The notes under the pieces were generated by a model. The model saw nothing but the letters and a program-made list of their open reading frames with translations. It ran no database searches and was not told the origin of the DNA. From positions 1 through 20,890 of the forward strand of contig CAKTJM010000015.1 in the NCBI GenBank assembly GCA_934567745.1: 20,890 nt of DNA. The letters are read 5' to 3'. Positions 1,562 through 20,855 of the stretch are shown one piece after another (the stretch's first letter is position 1; every line of letters begins with the position of its first letter). The DNA is from an uncultured Eubacteriales bacterium. Lineage in GTDB: Bacteria > Bacillota > Clostridia > Oscillospirales > Oscillospiraceae. The position numbers were made by a program, and so were the translations under genes.

Positions 1562-4500
1562 TTATCGCAGGACGACGTTCCCGTCGCCCAGCAGCTCGCG
1601 CAGCTCGGCCAGCAGCGCGTCGTGCAGCAGGCACGTCGCACCCTTGCGGCGGCCCGTCGCCGCGAAGAACAGCACCGTCGGGCTGTCGCCGGGGAAGAGG
1701 GCGAAGAGGTCCTGGATGCGTTGGAACAGCCACCCCTCGTCGGGGAGCCGGAGATAGAGCGTCCGCCCCTCCGGCCGCACCGGCGCGGCGGCCTGCGCGG
1801 CCGTCTGCGGAGCAGATGCGTCCGGCTCCTCCAGCGACGCGACGCGGTCGGCGAGCAGCTGGGGAGGCTTGTCCTCACGGGCGGAGATGCGCCCGGTGAC
1901 GGTGACGGCCCGCCCCTCGGCCAGGGCCGATCCGGCCTCCTCCAGCACGCGGGAGAAGACGAGCAGCTCCAGGCTCGCTCCGTCGTCCTCCAGGGTGACG
2001 TAGGCCATCAGGCTGTCGTTCCGGGTGGTCTTGACCCGCCGCGTGAGGACGATCCCGGCCAGGGTGACCTTCTGCCCGTCCTGATACCGCGTCGGCCCGC
2101 CGGGCTGGGCGAAGTCGGCCTTGAGCGGCGCGATCGGCACCGCGCCGCGCCGCACCGCCTCCTCGCGGAAGGCGTCCATCGGGTGGCCGCTGAGATACAG
2201 GCCCGTGACCTCCTTCTCCATCGCCAGCAGGACGGGCAGCGGCAGCTCCGCCCGGTCGGGATCGATGACCAGCTCCACCGGCTCCCCACCGTCCCCGCCG
2301 GAGGCGGAGAAGAGGTCGAACTGCCCCTCCAGGTTCTTCCGGCGGCTGCGGACCAGCCCGTCGAGGTACGGGCCGTAGGCGTCGAGCAGCTGCGCCCGGC
2401 GCAGGCCCATGCTGTCGAAGGCGCCGGAGCGGATCAGGCTCTCCAGCACGCGCTTGTTCAGGTCCCGCCCGAGCATCCGGTCGCAGAAGTCGGAGAACGA
2501 GGCGAACGGCCCGCCCGCGGCCCGCTCGTCCAGCACGTTCTGGGCGAAGCCCCGCCCGACGCCCTTGAGCGCCGCCAGGCCGAAGCGGATGTCCGGCCCC
2601 GAGACGGTGAAGTCCGCCCCGGACCCGTTCACGTCCGGCGGCAGCAGGCGGATGCCCATCGCGCGGCACTCGGCGATGTACTCGGCGACCTTGTCCTGCA
2701 CGTCGAGGACGGAGGTCAGCAGTGCGGCCATATACGCCCGCGGGTGATGGCACTTGGACCAGGCGGTCTGATAGGCCACGACGGCGTAGCACACCGCGTG
2801 GGCCTTGTTGAAGGCGTAGTTGGCGAAATCGAAGATCTCGTCATAGATGCTCTGCGCCACGTCCTCCGGGATCCCGTTGGCGGCGCAGCCGCAGATGCCG
2901 CGCTCCGGGTCGCCGTGGAGGAAGGCGCCGCGCTCGCGCTCGACGTCCTTGGCCTTCTTCTTGGACATGGCGCGGCGGATCATGTCGGCCTGGCCGAGGG
3001 AGAACCCGGCCAGCCGGCGGAAGATCTCGATGACCTGCTCCTGATAGACGATGCAGCCGTAGGTGACGGCGAGGATCGGTTCGAGCAGGGGGTGCTTGTA
3101 GACGATCCGGCTCGGATCGTGGCGGCAGGCGATGAACCGCGGGATCGAGTCCATCGGTCCCGGCCGGTACAGCGCGATGATGGCGGTGATGTCCTCGATG
3201 CTCTGCGGCTTGAGCCCGACGCACACGCCGGTCATCCCGCCGGACTCCATCTGGAACACCCCGCAGGTGCGCCCCTCGGAGAGCATCCGGAAGGTCTCCG
3301 GGTCGTCCTCCGGGATGGCGTGCAGGTCGAAGGCGGGGTCCTCCTGCCGCACGAGCCTGGCCGCATCGTCCAGCACGGTCAGGTTGCGCAGGGCCAAAAA
3401 GTCCATCTTCAGCAGGCCCAGCTCCTCCAGGGTCGTCATGGTGTACTGGGTGACGATGGACTCGTCGTTCTTGGCGAGGGGGACGTAGGTGTCCACCGGC
3501 GCGCGGGTGATGACGACCCCGGCGGCGTGGGTGGAGGCGTGCCGCGGCATCCCCTCCAGCGCCTTGGCCGTGTCGATGACCCGCTTGGCGGTGGGGTCGC
3601 CCTCATACTGCTCGCGGAACGGCTTGGAGACGGTCAGCGCCTGGTCGAGGGTGATGTGCAGGGCGTTGGGGACGAGCTTCGCGATCGCGTCGGCCTCGGC
3701 ATACGGCACGTTCAGCGCCCGCGCGACGTCGCGGATCGCGCCCTTGGCGGCCATGGTGCCGAAGGTGACGATCTGGGCGACGTGGTCCATCCCGTACTTG
3801 CGGCAGACGTAGTCGATCACCTCGCCCCGGCGTCGGTAGCAGAAGTCCACGTCGATATCGGGCATGGACACGCGCTCCGGGTTGAGGAACCGCTCGAAGT
3901 AGAGGGAGTATTTCATCGGGTCGATGTCGGTGATGTCCAGGCAGTAGGCGACCATGGACCCGGCCGCGGAGCCGCGCCCCGGTCCGACGGGGATGCCGCT
4001 GCGCTTGGCGTAGCCGATGAAGTCGGCGACGATGAGGAAGTATTCGACGAAGCCCATCCGCCCGATCATGGCCATCTCATAGGTGAGCTGGTCGCGATAG
4101 GCCGGGGGCGCGTCGGGATAGCGCCGCCGGAAGCCCTCCTCGCACAGGTGGGCGAAGTAGGCGCTGCTGTCGGCCCAGCCCTCCGGCACGAGGAACTCGG
4201 GCAGGTGGTAGGTGCCGAACTGGAACTCGACGTTGCACTGCTCGGCGATCCGGACGGTGTTGGCGACGGCCTCCGGCCACTCTGGGAAGAGGGCGGCCAT
4301 CTCATCCTCGGACTTGAGGTAGAACTCGTCCGTCTCGAAGCGCATCCGGTTCGGGTCCTGGATGGTCCGCCCGGTCTGGATGCACAGCAGGACGTCCTGG
4401 ACGGCGGCGTCCTCCCGCGTGAGGTAGTGCGCGTCGTTCGTGACGACGAGGGGGATGCCGGTCTCGCGGTGGAGCCGCAGCAGCCCGCGGGCGACCTCGG

Positions 4501-5047
4501 CCTGTTCGGGGATGCGGTGGTCCTGCAATTCCAGATAGAACCCGTCCGGCCCGAAGAGGGCCTGATGGTCCTCGGCGATCGCCTTCGCCCCGGCGTAGTC
4601 CCCGGCCAGCAGCCGCTGAGGGATGGCCCCGGCCAGACAGGCAGACAGGGCGATCAGGCCCTCGTGGTACTGCTCGAGCAGCTCCCGGTCGATGCGGGGC
4701 TTGCCGTAGAAGCCCTCGGTGAACCCGCGGCTGACGAGGGCGCAGAGGTTGCGATAGCCGGTCTCGTCGCGGCAGAGCAGCACGAGGTGGTTGGGCTTGT
4801 CGTCGCCGCGCTCATGGTCCCGGTCGAAGCGGGACCGGGGCGCGACGTAGACCTCGCACCCGATGATGGGCTTGATCCCGGCGGCCTTGGCGGCCTTGTA
4901 GAAATCGACCGCGCCGTACATGACCCCGTGATCGGTGAGCGCGACGGCGGGCTGGCCCAGCTCCTTGGCGCGCCGGACGAGGTCGCCGATGCGGCAGGCC
5001 CCGTCGAGGAGGCTGTATTCGGAGTGGACATGGAGATGGACGAACAT
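1562..5047 (-). CDS. dnaE: DNA polymerase III subunit alpha, DnaE1 type
   Basis: Replicative polymerase subunit of 1161 residues, the usual DnaE1 length. The N-terminal PHP domain starts MFVHLHVHSEYSLLDG and keeps all nine canonical metal-site residues (H6, H8, D15, H40, E65, H87, C137, D205, H207). The polymerase core shows GPGRGSAAGS (about 355-364), the catalytic PDIDVDF (D397, D399) and the third aspartate in LKMDFLALR. The C-terminal region has an OB-fold stretch (VTLAGIVLTRRVKTTRNDS onwards). In Firmicutes, DnaE usually works beside PolC, extending primers on the lagging strand; PolC is not in this window. The start is supported by AAGGAGG directly upstream of the ATG at 5047. It lies downstream of rapZ-whiA, as often in Clostridia, but a repeat-filled gap separates it from whiA. 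Confidence 0.97.
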   Translation of the reverse strand: MFVHLHVHSEYSLLDGACRIGDLVRRAKELGQPAVALTDHGVMYGAVDFYKAAKAAGIKPIIGCEVYVAPRSRFDRDHERGDDKPNHLVLLCRDETGYRNLCALVSRGFTEGFYGKPRIDRELLEQYHEGLIALSACLAGAIPQRLLAGDYAGAKAIAEDHQALFGPDGFYLELQDHRIPEQAEVARGLLRLHRETGIPLVVTNDAHYLTREDAAVQDVLLCIQTGRTIQDPNRMRFETDEFYLKSEDEMAALFPEWPEAVANTVRIAEQCNVEFQFGTYHLPEFLVPEGWADSSAYFAHLCEEGFRRRYPDAPPAYRDQLTYEMAMIGRMGFVEYFLIVADFIGYAKRSGIPVGPGRGSAAGSMVAYCLDITDIDPMKYSLYFERFLNPERVSMPDIDVDFCYRRRGEVIDYVCRKYGMDHVAQIVTFGTMAAKGAIRDVARALNVPYAEADAIAKLVPNALHITLDQALTVSKPFREQYEGDPTAKRVIDTAKALEGMPRHASTHAAGVVITRAPVDTYVPLAKNDESIVTQYTMTTLEELGLLKMDFLALRNLTVLDDAARLVRQEDPAFDLHAIPEDDPETFRMLSEGRTCGVFQMESGGMTGVCVGLKPQSIEDITAIIALYRPGPMDSIPRFIACRHDPSRIVYKHPLLEPILAVTYGCIVYQEQVIEIFRRLAGFSLGQADMIRRAMSKKKAKDVERERGAFLHGDPERGICGCAANGIPEDVAQSIYDEIFDFANYAFNKAHAVCYAVVAYQTAWSKCHHPRAYMAALLTSVLDVQDKVAEYIAECRAMGIRLLPPDVNGSGADFTVSGPDIRFGLAALKGVGRGFAQNVLDERAAGGPFASFSDFCDRMLGRDLNKRVLESLIRSGAFDSMGLRRAQLLDAYGPYLDGLVRSRRKNLEGQFDLFSASGGDGGEPVELVIDPDRAELPLPVLLAMEKEVTGLYLSGHPMDAFREEAVRRGAVPIAPLKADFAQPGGPTRYQDGQKVTLAGIVLTRRVKTTRNDSLMAYVTLEDDGASLELLVFSRVLEEAGSALAEGRAVTVTGRISAREDKPPQLLADRVASLEEPDASAPQTAAQAAAPVRPEGRTLYLRLPDEGWLFQRIQDLFALFPGDSPTVLFFAATGRRKGATCLLHDALLAELRELLGDGNVVLR

Positions 5048-5070: not shown

Positions 5071-5150
5071 GCGACGTGGGATCCCCGGAAAGCCTCCCTT
5101 GCGTAAAGGGAGGTGGCTCGGCGCAGCCGAGACGGAGGGATCGGAGACGT
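5071..5150 (+). repeat. Double-hairpin repeat, copy 1
   Basis: Two hairpins sit back to back: CCTCCCTT (5093-5100) pairs with AAGGGAGG (5106-5113), and CTCGGC (5117-5122) pairs with GCCGAG (5126-5131). A conserved tail follows (GACGGAGGGATCGGAGACGT). It is nearly identical to copy 3 at 5331-5412. From general familiarity, repeats of this kind are widespread in intergenic regions of gut Oscillospirales; no function is visible here. Confidence 0.85.
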
Positions 5151-5330: not shown

Positions 5331-5412
5331 GCGACGTTGGGTCCCCGGAAAAGCCTCCCTTGCGCAAAGGGAGGTGGCTCGGCGACAGCCGAGACGGAGG
5401 GATCGGAGACGT
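5331..5412 (+). repeat. Double-hairpin repeat, copy 3
   Basis: Almost identical to copy 1. The first loop is GCGCA instead of GCGTA and the second loop is GACA instead of GCA, so the changes fall in loops while both stems are unchanged. It ends about 33 bases from the whiA stop codon. Confidence 0.85.
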
Positions 5413-5444: not shown

Positions 5445-6341
5445 TCACCCCCTCTGACTCAACTCGATCAGCTTCTGCATCCGGTGGTTCAGCGAGGACT
5501 TCGTGACCGGCGGGTCGCACAGGGCGGCCAGCTGGGCCAGCGACAGCTCCGGGTTCTCCATCCGCAGCCGCGCGGCCTCGCGCAGCTTGGGGGTCAGCTC
5601 CTCCAGCGTCCCCGCCTCCTCCAGCGCGGCGATCGCCCGGCGCTGGACCAGGGCGGCGTCCACCGTCTTATCGACGTTGGCCGCCTCGCAGTTGACCCGG
5701 CGGTTGACGCCGTTGCGCAGGAGCTTCTCCGCCTTGGCGTTCATCAGCTCCATCGCCGCCACCGGCGCGCCGATCTCCGTGAGCAGCTCCTCGATGGCCT
5801 CGCTCTGCTTGAAATAGGTGATGTAGCTGCCCTTGCGGGTGACCTGCTTCGGCTCGTGCCCCGCCTCCCGCAGGAGGGCGGCCAGCTCGCGGCTCACGCG
5901 CAGATGGGTGGTGGCCAGCTCAAGGTGGTACCCCTTCCGCGGGTCGGTCACGGACCCGCCCGCGAGGAAGGCCCCGCGCAGGAAGGCCGCGCGGCAGTGG
6001 TCCTCCTCCAGCATGGCGAAATTGATGTGGTGCGCCGGTCCGCCCGGATCGAAGGCGCACAGGTCCCACACCCGCGCGAGCTTGACCGGGTCGGTCAGCG
6101 TGCAGATGCCCTTGCCGCCCGCGTCCGGCCCGCTGCGCTCGTCGAAGCGCAGGCCGAAGGCCCGGTGGAACAGCAGCGGCAGCCGCTGGGCGAAGGCGGC
6201 GGACTCGGTGACGATCCGCACCTGCTGGGTGGTGAAGGTATTGCAGTAGAGCAGCACGCCGCAGGCCTCTGCCTGGGCGCAGCAGCGGCGGGCGAGCTTC
6301 GACCGGCACAGCTCGGCCTTGACGTCGGCGGAGAAAGACAT
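5445..6341 (-). CDS. whiA: WhiA, DNA-binding regulator
   Basis: 298-residue protein beginning MSFSADVKAELC, the hallmark start of WhiA. The N-terminal two thirds form the LAGLIDADG-like fold (without nuclease function in this family); the C-terminus (about 245-295) is the helix-turn-helix part with KSSLNHRMQKLIELS. WhiA controls sporulation genes in Streptomyces and affects cell division and chromosome segregation in Bacillus. A good GGAGG precedes the ATG. It lies 21 bases after rapZ, so the two are almost certainly one operon. The usual middle gene of this cluster, yvcK/mgfK, is absent. Confidence 0.95.
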   Translation of the reverse strand: MSFSADVKAELCRSKLARRCCAQAEACGVLLYCNTFTTQQVRIVTESAAFAQRLPLLFHRAFGLRFDERSGPDAGGKGICTLTDPVKLARVWDLCAFDPGGPAHHINFAMLEEDHCRAAFLRGAFLAGGSVTDPRKGYHLELATTHLRVSRELAALLREAGHEPKQVTRKGSYITYFKQSEAIEELLTEIGAPVAAMELMNAKAEKLLRNGVNRRVNCEAANVDKTVDAALVQRRAIAALEEAGTLEELTPKLREAARLRMENPELSLAQLAALCDPPVTKSSLNHRMQKLIELSQRG

Positions 6342-7469: not shown

Positions 7470-8168
7470 ATGTACAACATCCTCGTCTGCGACGATGAGC
7501 GCGACATCGTCTCGGCGCTCGCCATCTACCTCGGCACCGCCGACTACCAGGTCTTCCCGGCCTACGACGGGCTGGAGGCCCTGCGCATCCTTGAGCGGGA
7601 GGACATCCACCTCGTCCTGCTCGACGTCATGATGCCCAAGCTCGACGGCATCTCCGCCCTCGGGCGGATCCGGGAGCACTCGAACGTCCCCGTCATCCTC
7701 CTGACCGCCAAGAGCGAGAACACTGACAAGATCCTCGGCCTGGACGTCGGGGCGGACGACTACGTCACCAAGCCCTTCGACCCCGTCGAGCTGCTCGCCC
7801 GCGTCCGGTCGCAGCTGCGCCGCTACCTCCAGCTCGGCGGCGGGCAGGTCAAGCCCACCGCCCTCGGCGTCGGCGGCGTCGCCATGGACGACCGCACGAA
7901 GACCGTCACCCTCGACGGCGAGCCGGTCGCCCTCACCCCGCGGGAGTACGACATCCTCCGGCTCCTGCTCCAGCACCCCGGCACCGTCTTCTCCCCCAAG
8001 CGGATCTACCGCGCCGTCTGGGGCGAGGAGCCGTACGGCGTGGAGAACGCCGTCGCCGTCCACATCCGTCATCTGCGTGAAAAGCTCGAGATCGTCCCGT
8101 CCGACCCGCGGTACATCAAGGTCGTCTGGGGCCAGGGCTATAAGATCGAGGAGGGGAGACCGAAATGA
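7470..8168 (+). CDS. OmpR/VanR-type response regulator
   Basis: 232-residue transcription factor. The receiver domain has the acidic pair D8/D9, the phosphoacceptor D52 in LLDVMMPKLDG, T79 in ILLTAKSE and K101 in YVTKPFDP. A winged-helix DNA-binding domain occupies about 130-230 (VALTPREYDILRLL and VHIRHLREKLE). The sequence around ILLTAKSENTDKILGLDVGA resembles the VanR-like subgroup, which is a subfamily label and does not imply glycopeptide resistance. I chose the ATG at 7470 over an in-frame ATG at 7413 because AAGGGAGG lies 8 bases upstream, the family starts here, and the longer form would begin inside the promoter. Its stop overlaps the kinase start (ATGA). Confidence 0.95.
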   Translation: MYNILVCDDERDIVSALAIYLGTADYQVFPAYDGLEALRILEREDIHLVLLDVMMPKLDGISALGRIREHSNVPVILLTAKSENTDKILGLDVGADDYVTKPFDPVELLARVRSQLRRYLQLGGGQVKPTALGVGGVAMDDRTKTVTLDGEPVALTPREYDILRLLLQHPGTVFSPKRIYRAVWGEEPYGVENAVAVHIRHLREKLEIVPSDPRYIKVVWGQGYKIEEGRPK

Positions 8169-10042
8169 GATACACCGCCCGCACCGCCGTCGCCGCCTTC
8201 GTCCTGTGCGTCGCGGCCTTCACCGTTGGCGTGCTGTGCTTCGTCCAGCTCGAGCCGCTGATCACCGGCGGCTATTACGAGGGCTACGGCCAGGACAACG
8301 TCATCACCTCCGTGGCGGAGCTGGAACTGGATACCCAGTGGGACCGGTTCGACATCGAGTACGACCGCACGTCCGATCTCGGCTGCCGTGTCACGGACCG
8401 CGGCCTGGACCCCAACGTCTGGTACACCGTCAGCCAGAACGGGCGGGAGCTGCTGCGCGGCGGCCCGGCGGCCCCGGCCCTGCGCAGTGCGACCGACTTC
8501 CTGGCCCGCTACACGAACACCGTCTATCTCTCGGACGACCAGGCCCCCTACACCGTCACCCTCTATCTCGTGGACCGGAGCCACTTCGTCAGCAGCGAGA
8601 TCAGCCGCTCCATCGAGCGGGCCGTCAGCCGGATGGCCGACGCCGACGCCTATCTGACCGGCGCGGTCGTCGGCGGGGTGATCGCCCTGGCCAGCCTGGC
8701 CTACCTCGTCGCTGGCGCGCTCCGCCGCGCCCGGCCCGAGGGGGACGGGAACGCCGCCGACGCCTTCGACCGGAGCGTCCCCGCCGATCTCTGCCTGGTC
8801 CTGTGCCTCGCCCTCGCGTACCTCACGCAGGTGAGCTTCCCGGCGTCTGGCTGGTGGCGCAGCCCCGGCTCCCTGCTCTTCGACGGCGCGCTCCTGGTGC
8901 TCTTCGCCACCTGTACGCTGCCCCTGGGCCTGTCGCTCGTGCGGCGGCTCCCCGGCGGCCGCTGGAAGGAGGGCCTGCTCGTGCGGCGGCTCTGGGCCAA
9001 GGCCAGGACGACCGTCCGCTTCGCCGTCAGCCGACGGGATCTGCTCGCCGTGACCATCGTCGTCTTCGCGGTCCTCTCCGTCCTGGAGGGCCTCTGCGGC
9101 CTCTACTTCAGCTGGGGCGGCTGGATCTTCTGGGCCCTGATCCGTCTGGGTGAGTTCTTCCTCGTCGTCTACGCCGTGGTCTATTGGAAGATCCTCCGCG
9201 AGGGCGCGCACGAGCTGGCCGCGGGCGACCTGGCCTACCGCGTGCCGATCGAGGACCTGCGCGGCCCGTTCCGCGGGATGGGCGAGGACCTGAGCGCCAT
9301 CCGCGGCGGCATCGAGAAGGCCGTGGAGGAGCAGATGCGCTCCGAGCGGATGAAGACGGAGCTGATCACCAACGTCTCGCACGACATCAAGACCCCGCTC
9401 ACGTCCATCGTGAACTACGTGGACCTGCTGGACAAGGAGGACCTGCCCGACGGCCCGGCGCGGGAGTACGTCGCGGTGCTCGTGCGGCAGGCGGCGCGCC
9501 TGAAGAAGCTCACGGAGGACCTGGTCGAGGCGTCGAAGGCCTCGACGGGCAGCCTGGAGGTGGACCTCCAGCGCACGGACGTGAACGTCCTGCTCGACCA
9601 GAGCGCGGCGGAGTACGCCGACCGGCTGCGGGCGCAGGACCTCACCCTGGTCCTCCGCCCGGCGGAGGGCGAGGCCCTCGTCCTGGCGGACGGGCGGCTG
9701 CTGTGGCGGATCTTCGAGAACCTGCTGGGCAACATCGTGAAATACGCCCTGCCGGGCACGCGGGTGTACCTGAGCTGCACGGCGGAGGAGGCGACGGTGC
9801 GGATCGTCTTCCGCAACATCTCGCGCGACCCGCTGGACGTCCCGCCGGAGGAGCTGATCGAGCGCTTCGTGCGGGGGGACGCCGCCCGCAGCACGGAGGG
9901 CAGCGGTCTGGGCCTGGCCATCGCGAACAGCCTGACGGACCTCCAGCACGGCACCTTCGCCCTGGACCTCGACGGGGACCTGTTCAAGGTGACGCTCACC
10001 TTCCCCCGCCTGGAGGAGGGGCTGGACGGCCCGACACCCTGA
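8165..10042 (+). CDS. Multi-TM sensor histidine kinase
   Basis: 625-residue membrane kinase that should phosphorylate the preceding regulator; their ATGA overlap implies coupled translation. TM1 (about 8-28) is followed by an external region of about 135 residues, then five more predicted TM segments (about 164-186, 207-224, 237-259, 293-315, 320-342). A HAMP-like linker leads to the H-box NVSHDIKTPLTSIVNYVDLL with H406. The N-box is FENLLGNIVKYA (N519, N523) and the G2 box GSGLGLAIAN begins near 579. A classical DxGxG box is not apparent; FRNISRDPLD stands in its place, as in many VanS-like Firmicutes kinases. The extra membrane segments suggest sensing within the membrane as well as outside; the signal is unknown. 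Confidence 0.93.
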   Translation: MRYTARTAVAAFVLCVAAFTVGVLCFVQLEPLITGGYYEGYGQDNVITSVAELELDTQWDRFDIEYDRTSDLGCRVTDRGLDPNVWYTVSQNGRELLRGGPAAPALRSATDFLARYTNTVYLSDDQAPYTVTLYLVDRSHFVSSEISRSIERAVSRMADADAYLTGAVVGGVIALASLAYLVAGALRRARPEGDGNAADAFDRSVPADLCLVLCLALAYLTQVSFPASGWWRSPGSLLFDGALLVLFATCTLPLGLSLVRRLPGGRWKEGLLVRRLWAKARTTVRFAVSRRDLLAVTIVVFAVLSVLEGLCGLYFSWGGWIFWALIRLGEFFLVVYAVVYWKILREGAHELAAGDLAYRVPIEDLRGPFRGMGEDLSAIRGGIEKAVEEQMRSERMKTELITNVSHDIKTPLTSIVNYVDLLDKEDLPDGPAREYVAVLVRQAARLKKLTEDLVEASKASTGSLEVDLQRTDVNVLLDQSAAEYADRLRAQDLTLVLRPAEGEALVLADGRLLWRIFENLLGNIVKYALPGTRVYLSCTAEEATVRIVFRNISRDPLDVPPEELIERFVRGDAARSTEGSGLGLAIANSLTDLQHGTFALDLDGDLFKVTLTFPRLEEGLDGPTP

Positions 10043-10385: not shown

Positions 10386-10408
10386 GGCCCGCCCCAATGG
10401 GGCGGGCC
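10386..10408 (-). terminator. Left bracket hairpin of repeat element A; minus-strand terminator
   Basis: GGCCCGCCCC (10386-10395) pairs with GGGGCGGGCC (10399-10408) around a 3-base loop. On the minus strand it is followed by TTCCTCTTT, so it probably ends the DUF1836-tatD-radical SAM transcript after reading through the element. Confidence 0.65.
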
Positions 10409-10409
10409 G

Positions 10410-10612
10410 CAGCGTGTCAAAAAAGCCTCGCAGAGTTTCGTGCCCGCAGGCACGAAATAGAGTCGAGTCATTTTCTCCGGCGACATGTGCGTCGGAGAAA
10501 ATACTTCTCAGCCCGTAAGTGTGCGAATCGTCCGCCGCAGGCGGACGGTGCGTTTGCGCAACGGGCTGCATCCCCTCTGCCGGAAAACCCCGCAGGGGTT
10601 TTTCGACAGCCT
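10410..10612 (+). repeat. Structured ~200-bp intergenic element, copy A
   Basis: A non-coding element lying between convergent genes, matched without gaps by copy B at 18475-18677 with about 16 substitutions, nearly all within 10515-10563. The ends are imperfect inverted repeats (TGTCAAAAAAGCC on the left; TGTCGAAAAACCC on the right, read on the minus strand). Internal pairings: TTTCGTGCC/GGCACGAAA (10436-10457), ATTTTCTCCG/CGGAGAAAAT (10470-10502), CAGCCCGT/ACGGGCTG (10509-10568) enclosing GTCCGCC/GGCGGAC (10530-10546), and a terminator-like right-end hairpin (10578-10608). Both strands have open frames through it, but copies differ by base-pair-preserving changes rather than silent ones, so I regard it as a folded RNA or MITE-like element. 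Confidence 0.85.
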
Positions 10613-10613
10613 G

Positions 10614-10642
10614 ACCGGCCCATCCCCAAGGGATGGGCCGGT
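10614..10642 (+). terminator. Right bracket hairpin of repeat element A; plus-strand terminator
   Basis: A 13-bp stem (ACCGGCCCATCCC with its complement, 3-base loop CAA) followed by GTTTTCTGGTTTT, a fair U-rich tail on the plus strand. It resembles the left bracket hairpin, differing by paired substitutions (GC/GC versus AT/AT in the middle of the stem). Confidence 0.7.
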
Positions 10643-10666: not shown

Positions 10667-11281
10667 TCACCCCGAATACGGCCGCACGCGGAACCGTGCG
10701 CCCAGCCCCTCGGCCAGCGCCCGGCACGCGGCGATCTCCGCCGGGGACTTGTCATAGTCCACGATGGTCACGGCCACGTCCGGCAGGACCTTCGCCGCCT
10801 CGCGCACGAAGTCGAGCATCGCCTGCCAGGCCACCGCCCCGGAGCCGGGGCGCGTCACGCGCAGATACTCCTCCGGCGTCGAGCCGTTGAGCGACACGGA
10901 CACCGCGTCCAGCCGCCCGACCAGCTCCGGCACGATGTCCCGGTGGTTGATCAGGCTCCCGTGCCCGTTCGTGTTCAGCCGGATCCGCGGCAGGTCCGCC
11001 CGGCCGCTCTCGTGCAGCCGGTCGCACAGCCACAGCAGATCGTCCAGCCGACACGTCGGCTCGCCGTAGCCGCAGAAGACGATCTCCTCATACGGCCGCA
11101 GATCGCGTGCCAGGATCTCGTCGAGCACCGCCTGACGCGGCGGCTCCTCCCGGAGCCACAGTCCGCCCAGACTGGCGTCGTCCTGGTCGCGGATGCAGAA
11201 CACGCACGAGCAGTCGCAGCGGTTGGTCATGTTGATGTACAGCCCGCCGTAATAATCATAGGTGATGATGTCGCCTAGCAT
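10667..11281 (-). CDS. TatD-associated radical SAM protein
   Basis: 204-residue small radical SAM protein. The iron-sulfur motif is C22-x3-C26-x2-C29 (NRCDCSCVFC) and the SAM-binding glycine/glutamate motif is GYGEPT (71-76). Its fusion-like adjacency to tatD matches a known family of radical SAM proteins encoded beside TatD, whose substrate is not established. It starts 21 bases after the tatD stop, with AAAGGAC as a modest ribosome binding site. It is last in the DUF1836-tatD operon. It is shorter than many radical SAM enzymes but has the core, so it may be a minimal barrel. Confidence 0.88.
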   Translation of the reverse strand: MLGDIITYDYYGGLYINMTNRCDCSCVFCIRDQDDASLGGLWLREEPPRQAVLDEILARDLRPYEEIVFCGYGEPTCRLDDLLWLCDRLHESGRADLPRIRLNTNGHGSLINHRDIVPELVGRLDAVSVSLNGSTPEEYLRVTRPGSGAVAWQAMLDFVREAAKVLPDVAVTIVDYDKSPAEIAACRALAEGLGARFRVRPYSG

Positions 11282-14477: not shown

Positions 14478-15926
14478 TCACCCGATCGGCACAGTCTGAT
14501 ACTCGCTGTACGTCACCAGCCCATCCCCGTCGCCGGACCAGCTCTTGATCTGGTTGCCATACTGGTCATAGGCATAGTAGAGGGTCGCGTCGTCATAGAC
14601 CACGCGCACCGGGTTGTTCCCCTGATCATAGGTATAGGCGGCCGAGCTGATGGTCTGCCCGTTGCTCAGCATCGTCAGGGTGGCCATGCGCCCCTCCCGA
14701 TCGTAGGTGTAGTTGTCGATGCTCTCGTTCGAGATGCGCCCGTTCGTCACGGTGACCTCGCGCAGCTGCATGAGCTGCCCGGCGTTGGCATAGGACCACG
14801 TCTTGGTGGTGGTGTTGCCGTTGGCATCGGTATAGACCTCCGTCAGCGGGTCGCCGGCCGCGGTGAAGCTCCGCTCCGTCGTGGTCGTGGCCGTGTCCCC
14901 ATAGGCGGGATGATGCACGGTGACCTCCTTCACGCAGTTGCCGTGCCGGTCATAGGTGGAGGTCGTCTCATACAGCAGCGCGCCCCGATAGGTCACGGAA
15001 TGGACCACCTGGCCCTTCGCGTCGTCATAGGTATAGGTGTCGTAGCCCATCTCCCCCTGGGGGTTCGTGTGCCGCTCCCAGATCTGGCGGCCCGAGGTGT
15101 CCCAGTAGTACTCGTAGAGGTCCCAGGTGCCGTCGATCTCCTCCCGGAAGCTGGTCTGGTGGCCCGCCGCGTCATAGGTGAAGGTCTGGACGTACGACGT
15201 GTCCGCGTCCCGATAGGTCCGGCGGATCAGCTGGTCCTGTGCATCGTATCCATAGGTATAGGTATAGGGCGGCTCTTCGGCGCCCGCCTGCCCGCTCTCG
15301 GAGGTCAGTCTGCCCTTGCTGTCGTAAGTGTAGACGACGTCGTAGGCGGTCCGCCCGTCGGTGAGCTTGCAGTAGCTGCGCGTCGGCACCCATTGGAGCT
15401 TCTGCCCCAGATAGACGGTATACGTCTCCTGGTCCCAGGAGACATCGACGCCCATGGCGTCGGCCACGGCGCGGACGGGCAGATAGGTCGTCCCGCCGTA
15501 CAGGAACGGCTCGACGACGTTCCCGCTGGCGTCCCGCGGGGTGATGAGCTTGCCGTCCACCTCCAGCTTGACGTCGCGGTAGGAGATGCCGATGCTCTTG
15601 TCGCGGTGGGTCGTCATGGCGGGCCCGGCCGGGGCGGTGCGCGCCGCGCCGGAGGTCAGGCGGACGGTGTAGGTCGCCTGGTCCCACGCCACGCCGACGC
15701 CCAGGGCATCGGCCACGGCGCGGACGGGGAGATAGGTCGTGCCGTTGTACAGGAACGGCTCCACCGGCGCGCCGCTGGCGTCCCGGGGGACGATCGGCAC
15801 GCCGTCGGCGACGATGGTCACGTCACGATAGGCGGCCTGGATGGTCGTGTCCTGTGACGCGGCGAGGGCGGGGGAGATGCTCAGCGCGAGGGAAAGGGCC
15901 AGTGCGATGGGGACGATCCGTTTCAT
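14478..15926 (-). CDS. Exported protein with two stalk domains and YD/RHS-type repeats
   Basis: 482 residues. A signal peptide (residues 1-22, cleavage after ALA) is followed by two copies of the copper amine oxidase N-terminal-like stalk domain (about 28-90 and 111-174), each with PRDASG, EPFLY.GTTYLPVRAVADA and a WDQ.TYTV end. The rest (about 195-480) is a run of degenerate tyrosine-rich YD repeats (VVYTYDSKGRLTSE, YGYDAQDQLIRR, FTYDAAGHQTSF, YTYDREGRMATL, YYAYDQYGNQIKSW). YD repeats fold into beta-rich shells in RHS and teneurin proteins; no toxin domain or autocleavage core is visible at the end. A surface or wall-associated role is likely, the ligand unknown. It diverges from the SLH 5'-nucleotidase gene. 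Confidence 0.88.
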   Translation of the reverse strand: MKRIVPIALALSLALSISPALAASQDTTIQAAYRDVTIVADGVPIVPRDASGAPVEPFLYNGTTYLPVRAVADALGVGVAWDQATYTVRLTSGAARTAPAGPAMTTHRDKSIGISYRDVKLEVDGKLITPRDASGNVVEPFLYGGTTYLPVRAVADAMGVDVSWDQETYTVYLGQKLQWVPTRSYCKLTDGRTAYDVVYTYDSKGRLTSESGQAGAEEPPYTYTYGYDAQDQLIRRTYRDADTSYVQTFTYDAAGHQTSFREEIDGTWDLYEYYWDTSGRQIWERHTNPQGEMGYDTYTYDDAKGQVVHSVTYRGALLYETTSTYDRHGNCVKEVTVHHPAYGDTATTTTERSFTAAGDPLTEVYTDANGNTTTKTWSYANAGQLMQLREVTVTNGRISNESIDNYTYDREGRMATLTMLSNGQTISSAAYTYDQGNNPVRVVYDDATLYYAYDQYGNQIKSWSGDGDGLVTYSEYQTVPIG

Positions 15927-16154: not shown

Positions 16155-18371
16155 ATGAAGAAACGTTTCCTTGCCCTCTTCCTCGCCCTCGTCATGGCCT
16201 TCGCACTGGCCATCCCCGCGGGCGCCGTGGAGAGCGAAACCACCGAGGCCCCCACTGCGGAGGCTCCCACCACCGAGACACCTGTGGCCCCCGCGGAGCC
16301 GACCGGCTCGATGGCCGGGTCCCTGGTCATCCTGCACTCGAACGACGTCCACGGCGCGATCGACGGCTATGCCACGATCGCCGCGATGAAGGCGTCCTAC
16401 GAGGCGGCCGGTGCGGCCGTCCTGCTCGTCGATGCGGGCGACTACATCCAGGGCGACCCCTCCGTCAGCATCTCTGAGGGCGCGACCGCCGTCGAGCTGA
16501 TGGACCTGGCCGGGTATGACGTCGTCACCCTCGGCAACCATGAGTTCGACTATGGCTACGCCAACCTGAAGAAGCTCGCGGACAGCGCGAAGTTCCAGAT
16601 CGTCGCCGCCAACGTCCTCTACGACGGCAAGACCGCCTTCGACGCGAACACCGTCATCGAGAAGGACGGCAAGAAGATCGGCGTCTTCGGCCTCGTCACC
16701 CCCGAGACCGCCACCAAGGCCCACCCCGGCAAGATCCAGGGCGTGACCTTCCTCGCCGGTGCGGACCTCGTCGCCTGCGCCAAGGAGCAGGTCGCGGCCC
16801 TTGAGGCGAAGGGCTGTGACGTCATCGTCTGCCTCGGCCACCTCGGCATCGACGCCGAGTCCACCGGCAACCGCTCCATCGACGTGCTCGAGAAGGTCGA
16901 TGGCATCGACGTCTTCATCGACGCGCACTCCCACTCCACCCTCGCGGACTATCAGAAGCTCGTGAAGGACGGCGTCGTCAATGGCGCGACCGTCACCTCC
17001 ACCGGCACCAAGTTCGCCAGCGTCGGCGTCGTCACCATCGCGGCCGACGGCACCGTCACCGCGGAGAACGTGGCCCTCGACAAGGCGGGCGTGACCCCCG
17101 TCGCGGCCATCGCCGACCGTGCGGCCGCCATCAAGGCCGACATCGAGACCGAGTACGGCAAGGTCTTCGCCAAGACCGAGATCGACCTCAACGGTGAGAA
17201 GGCCCCCGGCAACCGCACCCAGGAGACCAACCTCGGCGACCTCATCACCGACGCCATGCTCTGGCAGGCCAACAGCCTGGGCGAGAAGGTCGATGCGGCC
17301 ATCACCAATGGCGGCGGCATCCGTGCCAGCATCGCCGCGGGCGACATCACCAAGAAGGACGTGAACACCGTCCTGCCCTTCGGCAACACCCTGTATATGG
17401 TCAAGGTCACCGGCGCTGAGTTGGAGAAGGTCCTTGAGGTCTCCACCTGCGCCGCGCCCGACGCGCTGGGCGGCTTCCCGCAGGTCGCGGGCATCACCTT
17501 CGTCCTGAACACCGGCACCCCGTTCGCCAAGGGCGACGCCTATCCCGATTCCACCTACTTCGCCCCGAAGTCCGTGGACCGCGTCACCGTCCTGACCGTC
17601 GGCGGCGAGGCCTTCGACCGCGACGCCACCTACACCATCGTCACCAACGACTTCCTCGGCGCGGGCGGCGACACCTATTACGGCTTCAAGACCTCTACGA
17701 TCGGCTACGATCTGGGCGTGCCCATGGACGAGGTCCTCATGGACTACATCACCTCCGAGCTGAAGGGCGTCGTCACCGCCGAGCAGTACGGCGACACCCA
17801 GGGCCGCATCACCCAGATCAGCTATTCCGACGTCAAGGCCACCGCGTGGTACAACACCGCCGTGAACTACGTCACCCTCACCGGTCAGATGAACGGCGTC
17901 GGCGGCGCGTTCCAGCCGAACACCGACCTGAACCGCGCGATGATGGTCACCATCCTCTACCGCCTGGCCGGTTCCCCCGAGGTCACCGGCGAGAGCACCT
18001 TCACGGACGTCCCCGCGGGCCAGTGGTACACCAACGCGGTCCTGTGGGCGGCCAAGGAGGGCATCACCACCGGCATCAGCGAGACCACCTTCTCTCCGCT
18101 GACCTCGATCAGCCGTGAGCAGCTGGCAGCGTTCTTCTATCGCTTCGCGCAGTACACCGAGCAGGACGTGACCGTCGGCGAGGACACGAACATCCTCAGC
18201 TATGACGATGCCCAGACCATCTCGGAGTATGCGATCCCCGCCATCCAGTGGGCCTGCGGCTCCGGTCTCATCACCGGCACCACGGAGACGACCCTGTCCC
18301 CGAAGGCCACCGCCACCCGCGCCCAGGTCGCCACGATCCTGATGCGCTACACCACCGACGCGGACCTCTGA
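16155..18371 (+). CDS. S-layer-anchored 5'-nucleotidase/metallophosphatase
   Basis: 738-residue exported protein. A signal peptide (1-24, ending AGA) is followed by a Thr/Glu/Pro linker (about 25-52) and a metallophosphatase domain (about 56-300) with HSNDVHG (61-67), DAGDYIQG (93-100), GNHEFDYG (127-134), CLGHLG and DAHSHS. The 5'-nucleotidase C-terminal domain (about 338-550) includes NGGGIRASI and GGDTYYGF, the substrate-binding parts. Three SLH repeats end the protein (about 557-605, 615-665, 676-736), which should hold it to secondary wall polymers. The likely role is hydrolysis of extracellular nucleotides, freeing nucleoside and phosphate. Codon use is strikingly biased to C-ending codons compared with neighbours, suggesting high expression. 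AACAGGAGG supports the start. Confidence 0.94.
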   Translation: MKKRFLALFLALVMAFALAIPAGAVESETTEAPTAEAPTTETPVAPAEPTGSMAGSLVILHSNDVHGAIDGYATIAAMKASYEAAGAAVLLVDAGDYIQGDPSVSISEGATAVELMDLAGYDVVTLGNHEFDYGYANLKKLADSAKFQIVAANVLYDGKTAFDANTVIEKDGKKIGVFGLVTPETATKAHPGKIQGVTFLAGADLVACAKEQVAALEAKGCDVIVCLGHLGIDAESTGNRSIDVLEKVDGIDVFIDAHSHSTLADYQKLVKDGVVNGATVTSTGTKFASVGVVTIAADGTVTAENVALDKAGVTPVAAIADRAAAIKADIETEYGKVFAKTEIDLNGEKAPGNRTQETNLGDLITDAMLWQANSLGEKVDAAITNGGGIRASIAAGDITKKDVNTVLPFGNTLYMVKVTGAELEKVLEVSTCAAPDALGGFPQVAGITFVLNTGTPFAKGDAYPDSTYFAPKSVDRVTVLTVGGEAFDRDATYTIVTNDFLGAGGDTYYGFKTSTIGYDLGVPMDEVLMDYITSELKGVVTAEQYGDTQGRITQISYSDVKATAWYNTAVNYVTLTGQMNGVGGAFQPNTDLNRAMMVTILYRLAGSPEVTGESTFTDVPAGQWYTNAVLWAAKEGITTGISETTFSPLTSISREQLAAFFYRFAQYTEQDVTVGEDTNILSYDDAQTISEYAIPAIQWACGSGLITGTTETTLSPKATATRAQVATILMRYTTDADL

Positions 18372-18401: not shown

Positions 18402-18431
18402 AAGCCCCCGCTCGTTCGAGCGGGGGCTTTT
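18402..18431 (+). terminator. Terminator of the 5'-nucleotidase gene
   Basis: A GC-rich palindrome (AAGCCCCCGCTC paired with GAGCGGGGGCTT) followed by TTTT, about 30 bases after the stop codon. A textbook Rho-independent terminator on the plus strand. Confidence 0.9.
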
Positions 18432-18446
18432 CATCTCGTCAAAAAA

Positions 18447-18475
18447 GAGAGCGCAGGCGTGAGACCTGCGCTCTC
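18447..18475 (-). terminator. Left bracket hairpin of repeat element B; minus-strand terminator
   Basis: GAGAGCGCAGG (18447-18457) pairs with CCTGCGCTCTC (18465-18475). On the minus strand it is followed directly by TTTTTTGAC, so it is the likely end of the cysE-cysS transcript. Its sequence is repeated exactly at 18679-18706. Confidence 0.75.
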
Positions 18476-18677
18476 AGTGTGTCAAAAAAGCCTCGCAGAG
18501 TTTCGTGCCCGCAGGCACGAAATAGAGTCGAGTCATTTTCTCCGGCGACATGTGCGTCGGAGAAAATACTTCTCAGCCCACAAGTGTGCGAGTTGTCCGT
18601 CGAAGACGGACGGCGAGTGCATGCAGGGGGCTGCATCCCCTCTGTCGGAAAACCCCGCAGGGGTTTTTCGACAGCCT
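18475..18677 (+). repeat. Structured ~200-bp intergenic element, copy B
   Basis: Same length as copy A (10410-10612). The first half is identical to it; the apical region differs. The internal stem GTCCGTC/GACGGAC replaces GTCCGCC/GGCGGAC of copy A, a compensatory C-G to T-A change. The right-end hairpin (18643-18673, TGTCGGAAAACCCC paired with GGGGTTTTTCGACA) is fully paired here. It too lies between convergent genes (5'-nucleotidase and cysS). Confidence 0.85.
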
Positions 18678-18678
18678 A

Positions 18679-18706
18679 AGAGCGCAGGCGTGAGACCTGC
18701 GCTCTC
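18679..18706 (+). repeat. Right bracket hairpin of repeat element B
   Basis: A 28-base exact copy of 18448-18475, itself a hairpin (AGAGCGCAGG paired with CCTGCGCTCT). The plus-strand tail (TCATCTTATCTTATT) is only weakly terminator-like. Confidence 0.8.
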
Positions 18707-18742: not shown

Positions 18743-20191
18743 TCACACGCGCTTCCAGGTCGCGCCGTCCTTGCGGTCGACCAGCTCGATGCCCTGGGCC
18801 TTCAGCTCGTCGCGGATCCGGTCGGCCTCGGCGAAGTTTTTGGCCTTCTTCGCCTCGTACCGTGCCAGGACCAGCGCGTCGATCGCGGGGTCGCCCTCGC
18901 CGGTGATCGTGTAGCCGCCGGACGCCTGGGACTGGCTCGCCTTGGCCTGCTCGGCGCGGCGGGCCTCCGCCTTCTTGAGAAGATCCAGGCTCAGCACCTC
19001 GTCATAGCTGCCGATCAGCGCGCACTTCGTCGCGTCGGTCGTCTTCAGCTTCAGCACGTCGTACAGGGCCGTCACCGCCAGCGCGGTGTTCAGGTCGTTG
19101 TCCAGCGCGGCGCGGAACTTCTCCTTGCCCTCGGCCAGGACCGCCTCATCGACGTCCCCGCCCTTCGGGTCGAGCGCCGCGATGCGGCCGATCAGCTTGT
19201 TGAAGGTCCCGGCGGCGTTGTCCAGGTTCTCCCAGGTGAACACCAGGCCCTTGCGGTAGTGGGACTGCAAGCAGAACAGGCGATAGGCCAGCGGGTCGTA
19301 GCCCTTCTCCTGCAGCAGGGACACGGTGAGGAACTCGCCGCTGGACTTGGACATCTTGCCATGGTTCGTGTTCAGGTGGTGGACATGGAACCAGTGGGTG
19401 CACCAGGGGTGGCCGAGATAGGCCTCGGACTGCGCGATCTCGTTCGTGTGGTGCGGGAAGGCGTTGTCGATGCCGCCGCAGTGCAGGTCGAGGTACTCGC
19501 CCAGGTACTTCATGGAGATGCAGGAGCACTCGATGTGCCAGCCGGGGTAGCCGACGCCCCAGGGGGAGTCCCACTTGAGGGCCTGGTCCTCGAACTTGGA
19601 CTTGGTGAACCACAGCACGAAGTCGTTGCTGCTGCGCTTGTTCGTGTCCTCCTCGACGCTGTCGCGCACGCCGACGGCCAGATCCTCGGCGTCGTGGTCG
19701 TTGAAGACGTAGTAACGGTCGAGCTTGGAGGTGTCGAAGTAGACGTTGCCCCCGGCGATGTAGGCGTAGCCGGTGTCGAGCAGCTTGGTGATGACCTTGA
19801 TGTATTCGTCGATCATCCCGGTGGCGGGCTGGACGGTGTCCGGCCAGCGGATGTTCAGCTTGTCGCAGTCGGCGCGGAAGGCGTCGGTGTAGAACTGGGC
19901 GATCTCCATGACGGTCTTGTGCTCGCGCTTGGCGCCCTTGACCATCTTGTCCTCGCCGGTGTCGGCGTCGGAGGAGAGGTGGCCGACGTCGGTGATGTTC
20001 ATGACGCGGTGGACGTCATAGCCCTCCCACCGGAGGGTCTTCTCCAGCACGTCCTCCATGATGTAGGAGCGCAGGTTGCCGATGTGGGCGAAGTGGTAGA
20101 CGGTGGGGCCGCAGGTGTACATGGACACCTTGCCCGGCTCGTGGGTCCGGAACTCTTCCTTCTTGCGGGTCAGGGAATTATACAGCTTCAT
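18743..20191 (-). CDS. cysS: Cysteinyl-tRNA synthetase
   Basis: 482-residue class I synthetase that charges tRNA-Cys. The HIGH-type motif is HIGN (36-39) within TCGPTVYHFAHIGN; the KMSKS motif is exact at 279-283. Zinc ligands expected for CysRS are C27, C222, H247 and E251. I chose the ATG at 20191 over an in-frame ATG 27 bases upstream (20218) because AAGGAGG lies just before it, and because the protein then begins MKLYNSLTRKKEEF as CysRS does. Its start overlaps the end of cysE by 14 bases, so its ribosome binding site is inside cysE. Confidence 0.97.
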   Translation of the reverse strand: MKLYNSLTRKKEEFRTHEPGKVSMYTCGPTVYHFAHIGNLRSYIMEDVLEKTLRWEGYDVHRVMNITDVGHLSSDADTGEDKMVKGAKREHKTVMEIAQFYTDAFRADCDKLNIRWPDTVQPATGMIDEYIKVITKLLDTGYAYIAGGNVYFDTSKLDRYYVFNDHDAEDLAVGVRDSVEEDTNKRSSNDFVLWFTKSKFEDQALKWDSPWGVGYPGWHIECSCISMKYLGEYLDLHCGGIDNAFPHHTNEIAQSEAYLGHPWCTHWFHVHHLNTNHGKMSKSSGEFLTVSLLQEKGYDPLAYRLFCLQSHYRKGLVFTWENLDNAAGTFNKLIGRIAALDPKGGDVDEAVLAEGKEKFRAALDNDLNTALAVTALYDVLKLKTTDATKCALIGSYDEVLSLDLLKKAEARRAEQAKASQSQASGGYTITGEGDPAIDALVLARYEAKKAKNFAEADRIRDELKAQGIELVDRKDGATWKRV

Positions 20192-20855
20192 GCCGATCCT
20201 CCTTGTGTTCGTTCTCATTCGTGATGGTCTTATCGAGATAACGCTCGAGCCAGGCCACGCGGGAGGAGAGGGCCTCCATCTCCTTCTGCACGGGGTCGGT
20301 GACGCTGACCTGGTCGACGTCGTGGACGAAGTCGGGGCGCTCCCCGGCGATGCGGACGACGCGGGCGGGGACGCCGACGGCGGTGGCGTTCTCCGGCACC
20401 TCCGCCAGGACGACGGCGTTGGCCGCGATGCGCGCGCCGTCGCCGACCTTGAACGGGCCGAGGACCTTCGCGCCGGTGGAGAGCAGGACGTTGTTGCCGA
20501 TGGTGGGATGGCGCTTGCCCTGGTCCTTGCCGGTGCCGCCGAGGGTGACGCCGTGGTAGATGAGGCAGTCGTCGCCGACCTCGGCGGTCTCGCCGATGAC
20601 GATGCCCATACCGTGGTCGATGACGAGCCGGCGGCCGAGCTTGGCGCCGGGGTGGATCTCGATCCCGGTCCAGAACCGGCTCCACTGGGAGATGGTCCGG
20701 GCGAGGAATTTCAGGTTGTGTTCGTAGCAGGCGTGGGCGGCGCGGTGGTACATCGTCGCGTGGACGCCCGGATAGAGGAGGAAGACCTCCAGCTTGCTGC
20801 GCGCGGCGGGGTCGCGGGCCTGATAGGCCGCGAGGGTCTCGATGAGATGGGACAA
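20178..20855 (-). CDS. cysE: Serine O-acetyltransferase
   Basis: First step of cysteine synthesis: serine plus acetyl-CoA gives O-acetylserine. About 225 residues, the short Gram-positive/plant-type length. The left-handed beta-helix hexapeptide region includes IEIHPGAKLGRRLVIDHGMG, VIGETAEVGDD and IYHGVTLGGTGKDQGKRHP, with the two catalytic histidines in DHGMG and YHGVTLGG. The C-terminus (QKEMEALSSRVAWLERYL) looks like a short coiled coil. I prefer a TTG start at 20855: AGAGGTGA lies at ideal distance, whereas the in-frame GTG at 20864 is part of that same Shine-Dalgarno sequence. Pairing with cysS couples cysteine supply to its use. Confidence 0.94.
   Translation of the reverse strand: MSHLIETLAAYQARDPAARSKLEVFLLYPGVHATMYHRAAHACYEHNLKFLARTISQWSRFWTGIEIHPGAKLGRRLVIDHGMGIVIGETAEVGDDCLIYHGVTLGGTGKDQGKRHPTIGNNVLLSTGAKVLGPFKVGDGARIAANAVVLAEVPENATAVGVPARVVRIAGERPDFVHDVDQVSVTDPVQKEMEALSSRVAWLERYLDKTITNENEHKEDRHEAV

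Follow-up and report, generated by a model that had tools for sequence, protein, structure and literature searches.

A short repeat that occurs twice in the window (the whole 20,890-nt stretch of DNA that was analysed) is very probably a MITE of an IS1182 subgroup in Oscillospiraceae, one that targets a stem-loop, would be joined at its feet and often leaves the whole hairpin copied. The evidence comprises the repeat and its family, the ends of the element, duplicated hairpins around many copies, one syntenic site that lacks the element in relatives, and insertion sequences (IS) that match the element in their ends and in the kind of duplication. The original prediction had suggested a non-autonomous mobile element settled in terminators, and this suggestion is well supported by the hairpin duplication and by the IS1182 elements that share its ends.

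The two window copies, W1 (10410-10613, plus strand, starting with CAGCGTGTCAAAAAAGCC and finishing with GGGGTTTTTCGACAGCCTG, ends taken from the alignment) and its repeat W2 (18475-18677, plus strand), align without gaps as originally described, with 92% identity and 17 differences in 203 bases between 10410-10612 and 18475-18677. Fifteen of the 17 differences fall in element positions 106-153, and at base level they bear out the predicted apical clustering and pair-preserving changes: 126 C>T together with 132 G>A converts GTCCGCC/GGCGGAC to GTCCGTC/GACGGAC, 107 T>C is matched by 152 A>G, and the neighbouring pair 106/153 is broken (G-C to A-G). The imperfect inverted-repeat ends noticed earlier are TGTCAAAAAA / TTTTTCGACA, and the final bases of W1, TTTTTCGACAGCCTG, match the end of an IS1182 element (L307). 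Both copies lie between convergent genes, as the flanking ORFs attest: W1 between a sensor histidine kinase (8165-10042, plus strand) plus a small ORF on the same strand and a radical SAM gene (10667-11281, minus strand), and W2 between a 5'-nucleotidase with SLH domains (16155-18371, plus strand) and cysS (18743-20218, minus strand), these genes being assigned from the ORF list and a domain scan. The reported lack of a transposase holds for the five flanking ORFs that were scanned, the remaining window ORFs having been read in the list only. When the surroundings of W1 were searched in 400 genomes, 10 matched, mostly through the radical SAM gene, and the 13 loci inspected contained no element and had lost the synteny.

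Two hairpins that were overlooked in the original prediction frame each window copy; the interval it had marked, 10386-10642, is bounded exactly by the two outward terminator-like hairpins of W1, which the consensus scan places at 10386-10408 (minus strand, on the radical SAM side) and 10614-10642 (plus strand). These two are similar, not identical (17 of 23 positions alike), a similarity reached or exceeded by 76 of 20,000 random GC-rich hairpins, and they could represent a diverged duplicate, chance, or recombination between copies. W2 lies between two identical copies of the stem-loop AGAGCGCAGGCGTGAGACCTGCGCTCT, the left at 18448-18474 (minus strand, terminator-like with its preceding A run and on the cysS side) and the right at 18679-18705 (no strand assigned), and its flanking duplicate matches at 28 of 28 positions. 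Left of this duplication a separate terminator-like hairpin (18402-18429, plus strand), recognised by eye and listed by the scan in part only, adjoins the 5'-nucleotidase gene. The consensus terminator scan found three sites at W1 and four at W2, against 0.6 and 0.4 expected; at W2 it marked the left hairpin on the minus strand, where it would serve cysS, and did not list the right copy. Since the left hairpin is marked for cysS and the 5'-nucleotidase gene has another hairpin beside it, the duplicated hairpin was, judging from sequence and orientation, probably the cysS terminator, and W2 would now lie in the 3' untranslated region of cysS.

Two other repeats were seen in the window. A hairpin repeat, CCTCCCTTGCGYAAAGGGAGGTGGCTCGGCG, has two copies 261 bp apart (5077-5123 and 5338-5384) between the ORFs at 1562-5047 and 5445-6341, and a 102-nt direct repeat (15414-15515 and 15663-15764, 85% identical) lies inside the ORF at 14478-15926, where it is perhaps a duplicated protein domain.

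The search of other Oscillospirales genomes that had been proposed as a check revealed a multicopy family, and a single genome can give as many as 72 matches. A 20-mer taken from the central hairpin was found unchanged in 54 contig stretches, under titles such as Oscillospiraceae, Flavonifractor, Oscillibacter, Clostridiales and Eubacteriales, and also in four viral contigs. A 203-bp query from Flavonifractor An10 gave 72 matches in An10, 53 in the genome G003 and 44 on the 861-kb Vescimonas fastidiosa plasmid, numbers of matches rather than of copies, as certain copies yield two; all 14 records searched with this query matched, having been preselected for carrying a copy. A covariance model based on 26 copies, applied to 245 genomes, all from the order, with stringent filters and no more than 10 candidates scored in each, matched at least 38 of them. 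The interiors of the elements are variable, and short versions keep chiefly the 5' and 3' modules. Matches were found in two of 72,556 records of a plasmid collection (34 places on one, one on the other) and in four of 50,697 records of a phage collection, all unannotated 'Bacteriophage sp.' scaffolds; a 31-base pattern made of the left flank and hairpin of one viral contig (L056) was present in no other viral contig. An autonomous version was sought in the collected loci with separate models of the 5' and 3' ends. Nine pairs were more than 280 bp apart: two were larger variants (about 310 bp), and in the other seven the ends of adjacent plasmid copies had been weakly paired with each other. 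On the plasmid, the 2.9 kb separating two like hairpins proved to hold a duplication of an NhaC antiporter gene rather than an element.

In An10, an unrelated-looking insert splits one element copy (L105, 2121-2347) at the central apex and has two copies of the hairpin TTGCCCCGAAGGGGCAA near its own ends; a like sequence adjoins the copy L003 117, and the insert is perhaps a second hairpin-duplicating family.

The duplication of the flanking hairpin recurs across the family. With partial hits and copies near contig ends excluded, and with 26 of 120 copies dropped as identical, 94 unique full copies remained, W2 included, and 41 of them have a duplicate in the left and right flanks that scores at least 14; when flanks of different copies were paired to obtain the chance level, 5 of 3,000 pairs (0.17%) reached this score. 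A first scoring of extracted copies had given a duplicated stem-loop in 26 of 56. The duplicates are 15-43 nt long and are mostly whole terminator-like stem-loops: on a strict count 30 of the 41 contain an uninterrupted stem of at least six pairs, and the other 11 include several interrupted stems, a few partial-hairpin matches and a weak one at 377045. No duplication was detected in 53 of the 94 copies. Its presence tracks the TGTC end, being found in 33 of 50 copies with this end vs 8 of 44 without it (p = 3e-6), and the TGTC end is missing in 36 of the 53 copies that lack a duplication.

Insertion sequences of the IS1182 family are known for long, variable target duplications (the listed length is 0-60 bp), and for this reason the IS1182 transposase model NF033551 was searched. 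Matches were obtained in 6 of 15 element-bearing genomes, three of them above the cut-off, and none in the other nine. Among the nine is a V. fastidiosa genome (G600) that carries the plasmid with 44 element matches (100% identity over 2,301 bases); many element copies may thus now be fixed. Among 300 genomes of the family, 28 matched NF033551 at E 1e-80. Element-type ends are paired 1496-1738 bp apart (one mismatch allowed) in 9 of 34 NF033551 loci; the ends common to the element and the IS are CAGNNTGTCRAAAAA / TTTTTCGACAGNNTG, with terminal repeats of the form CAGNNTGTCRA..A. Among the 25 loci without such a pair are members of other IS1182 subgroups, incomplete genes and loci at contig edges.

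Five of the IS, 1496-1571 bp in length, are flanked by a duplicated whole hairpin of 29-36 bp. The two hairpins are identical in L332 (30 bp), L333 (29 bp) and L337 (31 bp) and differ by two mismatches in L307 (36 bp), which resides in An10, the genome with 72 element matches, and in L306 (35 bp, genome G025), where the loop is inverted. As for the other four, L330 and L340 each lie between hairpins that differ, a single hairpin accompanies L335, and the contig of L339 ends 2 nt past the IS. The five partner proteins score 370-402 bits against NF033551 (cut-off 270) and all contain DDE_Tnp_1, DDE_Tnp_1_6 and DUF772 domains, which makes them IS1182 transposases. A deleted relic of an An10-type IS, with both ends kept, lies between two different hairpins in another genome (G004). 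The sequence shared by MITE and IS is limited to the terminal 15-17 nt and a similar 3' hairpin, and we infer from these ends that an IS1182 transposase would mobilise the element in trans.

In a minority of cases the loop of the second hairpin resembles that of the first more closely when read as its reverse complement (L306, L094 2002 and L112 1502, and further L009 2687, L052 4752 and W01 145559). These look as if one hairpin copy had flipped, during repair or later.

A syntenic site without the element was found for one copy. At this locus of Flavonifractor An10 (L090), convergent ORFs 327 bases apart enclose the order hairpin-element-hairpin. Three genomes (G143, G213 and G002) have the same convergent gene pair, 80-83% identical, without the element: the gap between the matched gene stretches is 43, 49 and 67 bases, respectively, vs 323-330 in the query, and it holds one A-hairpin-T stretch. 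The convergent ORFs of G143 are 47 bases apart, and the hairpin of the empty site differs in sequence from that of the occupied site in An10. Two further candidates were rejected, G003 for an element copy elsewhere on the contig bearing the right-hand gene, and G363 for synteny that is too broken. No second empty site emerged from L092 and L094, where the flanking genes are on separate contigs in relatives, from L095, which gave no flank match at E 1e-60, or from the IS L307, whose flanks are not together.

Placement relative to genes was assigned by hand for 33 near-full copies among 48 hits in the first 800 kb of the V. fastidiosa plasmid, relying on the deposited gene table, which is known to be incomplete; a short annotated ORF overlapping the copy at 376848 was disregarded, and the copy at 131235, with a duplicate score of 12 and a non-adjacent match, was left uncounted as a duplicate. 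Of ten copies with an adjacent duplicated hairpin, eight are between convergent genes and two lie past the end of a gene whose partner runs in the same direction. The 23 copies without one comprise 3 convergent, 4 divergent and 16 same-direction placements (8/10 vs 3/23 convergent, Fisher p = 4e-4). The convergent setting described for the window copies is enriched on the plasmid only among copies with a duplicated hairpin.

By eye, some copies are directly upstream of a ribosome-binding site. The plasmid copies at 335618, 423103 and 310487 follow a promoter-like TATAAT or a stop codon and precede the ribosome-binding site, so they would be in 5' untranslated regions; those at 335618 and 423103 are without the CAGNNTGTC end, and their 3' end reads TTTTTTCGCCAG. 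The same plasmid (NZ_AP023416.1) has frequent 22-nt hairpins, GGGCCGATG..CATCGGCCC (e.g., at 257387, 259759 and 264695), which form a further repeat family.

The element itself is strongly folded. W1 has a folding energy of -100.9 kcal/mol, compared with -66.8 +/- 4.4 for 200 dinucleotide shuffles (z -7.7), and fold and covariation together delineate six helices on the plus strand: helix 1 (10437-10456), helix 2 with the conserved apex GGCGACATGTGCGTC (10470-10502), the branched arm of helices 3-5 (10509-10568), CAGCCCGT...ACGGGCTG, which encloses GTCCGCC/GGCGGAC and contains helix 5 (10527-10549), and helix 6, a 3'-terminal hairpin (AAAACCCC/GGGGTTTT, 10578-10605) similar to the one in which the IS1182 element L307 ends. 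In the alignment of the 26 copies behind the covariance model, two-sided changes occur in 27 of 54 pairs, with a covariation score of 0.258 vs 0.126 +/- 0.006 after shuffling and 0.054-0.078 for slid versions of the structure; this set was picked by its helix 2 pattern, so helix 2 was mostly unable to vary. In a plasmid set free of that selection (46 matches in 800 kb), two-sided changes occur in 36 of 54 pairs, 4 of 13 in helix 2, a count biased by the fitting of the alignment to the structure, and the score is 0.287 vs 0.092 +/- 0.005 for shuffles. Helix 4 has no two-sided changes in either set, and five of the six helices covary. The structure conservation claimed in the original prediction is thus upheld beyond the shuffled controls in both alignments, though the scores are subject to the relatedness of the copies and to subfamily structure.

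This fold, the covariation in five of six helices and a strongly conserved apical loop could suggest a non-coding RNA or 3'-UTR domain with a function of its own (3'-end formation, stability or protein binding) that is incidentally multicopy, and the copies that by eye follow a promoter-like sequence or stop codon and precede a start codon would agree with it. However, the covariation signal would look alike for DNA or RNA pairing, and correction between arms of a DNA palindrome could add to it, as could subfamily structure. An RNA domain also leaves unexplained the up to 72 matches per genome, the variable interiors and short versions, the terminal repeats held in common with IS1182, the hairpin duplications and the empty site. 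Moreover, 20 of the 23 plasmid copies without a duplicated hairpin are outside convergent gene pairs, and the Rfam covariance models gave no match in the window at gathering score. We consider this explanation unlikely.

It is also conceivable that no insertion took place and that each convergent gene had a terminator to itself, the two then being made alike inside an extended inverted repeat through template switching or gene conversion. Palindromes can correct each other, which would suit the 5 of 41 duplicates with an inverted loop, and W1, L330 and L340 are flanked by two different hairpins. In contrast, the loops are direct in 34 of the 41 duplicates (two are tied), relatives have a single hairpin at one syntenic site, and five IS1182 elements are flanked by the same duplication, which together make homogenisation very improbable. 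The mixed hairpins at W1, L330, L340 and the relic in G004, as well as the flanks of L092 and L094 that are split in relatives, would fit recombination between copies. Group IIC introns insert at terminator hairpins, yet it is hardly credible that a retroelement or a group IIC-like intron inserted downstream of terminators here, given the terminal inverted repeats, the duplication of whole hairpins and the DDE-transposase partners, whose ends are the same.

Insertion of an IS1182-type MITE into a stem-loop most likely proceeds as follows. The transposase would synapse the element ends and recognise the stem-loop by its shape, the target being able to extrude a cruciform, and would join the element at the 5' feet of the hairpin. 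With shape recognition and joining at the feet, gap repair would duplicate the entire stem-loop, irrespective of its length. Each convergent gene would still end at an outward hairpin with a T run, the inner sides of the hairpins would lose theirs, and the inserted element would become part of the 3' untranslated regions. Since the whole hairpin is copied, the genes on both sides probably keep their stop signal, as far as the arrangement of hairpins and T runs indicates, and transcription termination would survive insertion. We are more tentative about an extended version, possible though doubtful, in which a shape-reading transposase sets the duplication length by the size of the stem-loop, and can therefore enter a terminator without destroying it, and in which the passenger is a mobile RNA domain selected for its fold whose copies in 3' and 5' untranslated regions now act as regulators.

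Other structured or mobile repeats share parts of this behaviour. REP/BIME elements with RAYT and derivatives of IS200/IS605 have subterminal hairpins and spread through intergenic regions; to our knowledge, target duplication is not expected of them. The elements described here differ in having DDE-type partners and long duplications, and we rank the group IIC intron, HUH/REP and ncRNA-gene readings below that of an IS1182 MITE. Like BOX, RUP, SPRITE, ERIC and QMITE, they are short, multicopy, structured, intergenic and gene-less, and a MITE review names terminator-like repeats (PMC10969869); compared by the descriptions consulted there, none of these five is described as duplicating a terminator.

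The closest likeness is to IS1272 and TnSha1, IS1182-family elements of staphylococci that target stem-loops without sequence consensus, often terminators (Wan et al., 2017, PMC5678879; Furi et al., PMC4923244): transposase family and stem-loop targets are the same, and the terminal repeats are about 16 bp. In the accounts of IS1272 and TnSha1 given in these papers, the stem-loop is partly deleted or replaced without target duplication, whereas here the whole stem-loop is duplicated, and there is in addition a MITE family with dozens of copies. Instead of an IS1272-type loss, the hairpin occurs twice in 41 of 94 copies and at 5 of 9 IS loci, counting the duplicated cases only. Duplication of a whole stem-loop was drawn as hypothetical pathway b by Wan et al. 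(2017, PMC5678879), and the Oscillospiraceae elements behave as this pathway predicts. Certain IS1182 members target palindromes (Siguier et al., as reported in PMC5678879 and PMC4923244), transposition of the IS1182 type may or may not duplicate or delete target sequence and may involve recognition of a target structure (PMC12056078, 2025), and ISPse1 is tabulated with a 4-bp duplication (PMC3281130). As PMC12056078 reports duplication by IS1182, duplication in itself has precedent in the family. Unlike other IS1182 members, the subgroup here has CAGNNTGTC ends, and in the passages of the literature consulted on those members we found no data linking duplication length to a stem-loop. Within the sections of the open-licence literature consulted, we found a description of neither this repeat nor natural duplication of a whole stem-loop by IS1182. 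Both the MITE family and this mode are new, the latter within an IS family already known; taken by itself the repeat is ordinary mobile DNA, and what stands out is its handling of the target.

Overall, many copies and autonomous elements provide natural evidence for a branch of IS1182 transposition that, in the account of PMC5678879, had been drawn only as a possibility. They predict a testable rule, that the length of the duplication equals the length of the palindrome, and suggest a low-cost life of the element within the terminators of convergent genes. In these common gut bacteria, a large repeat family lengthens and structures many untranslated regions.
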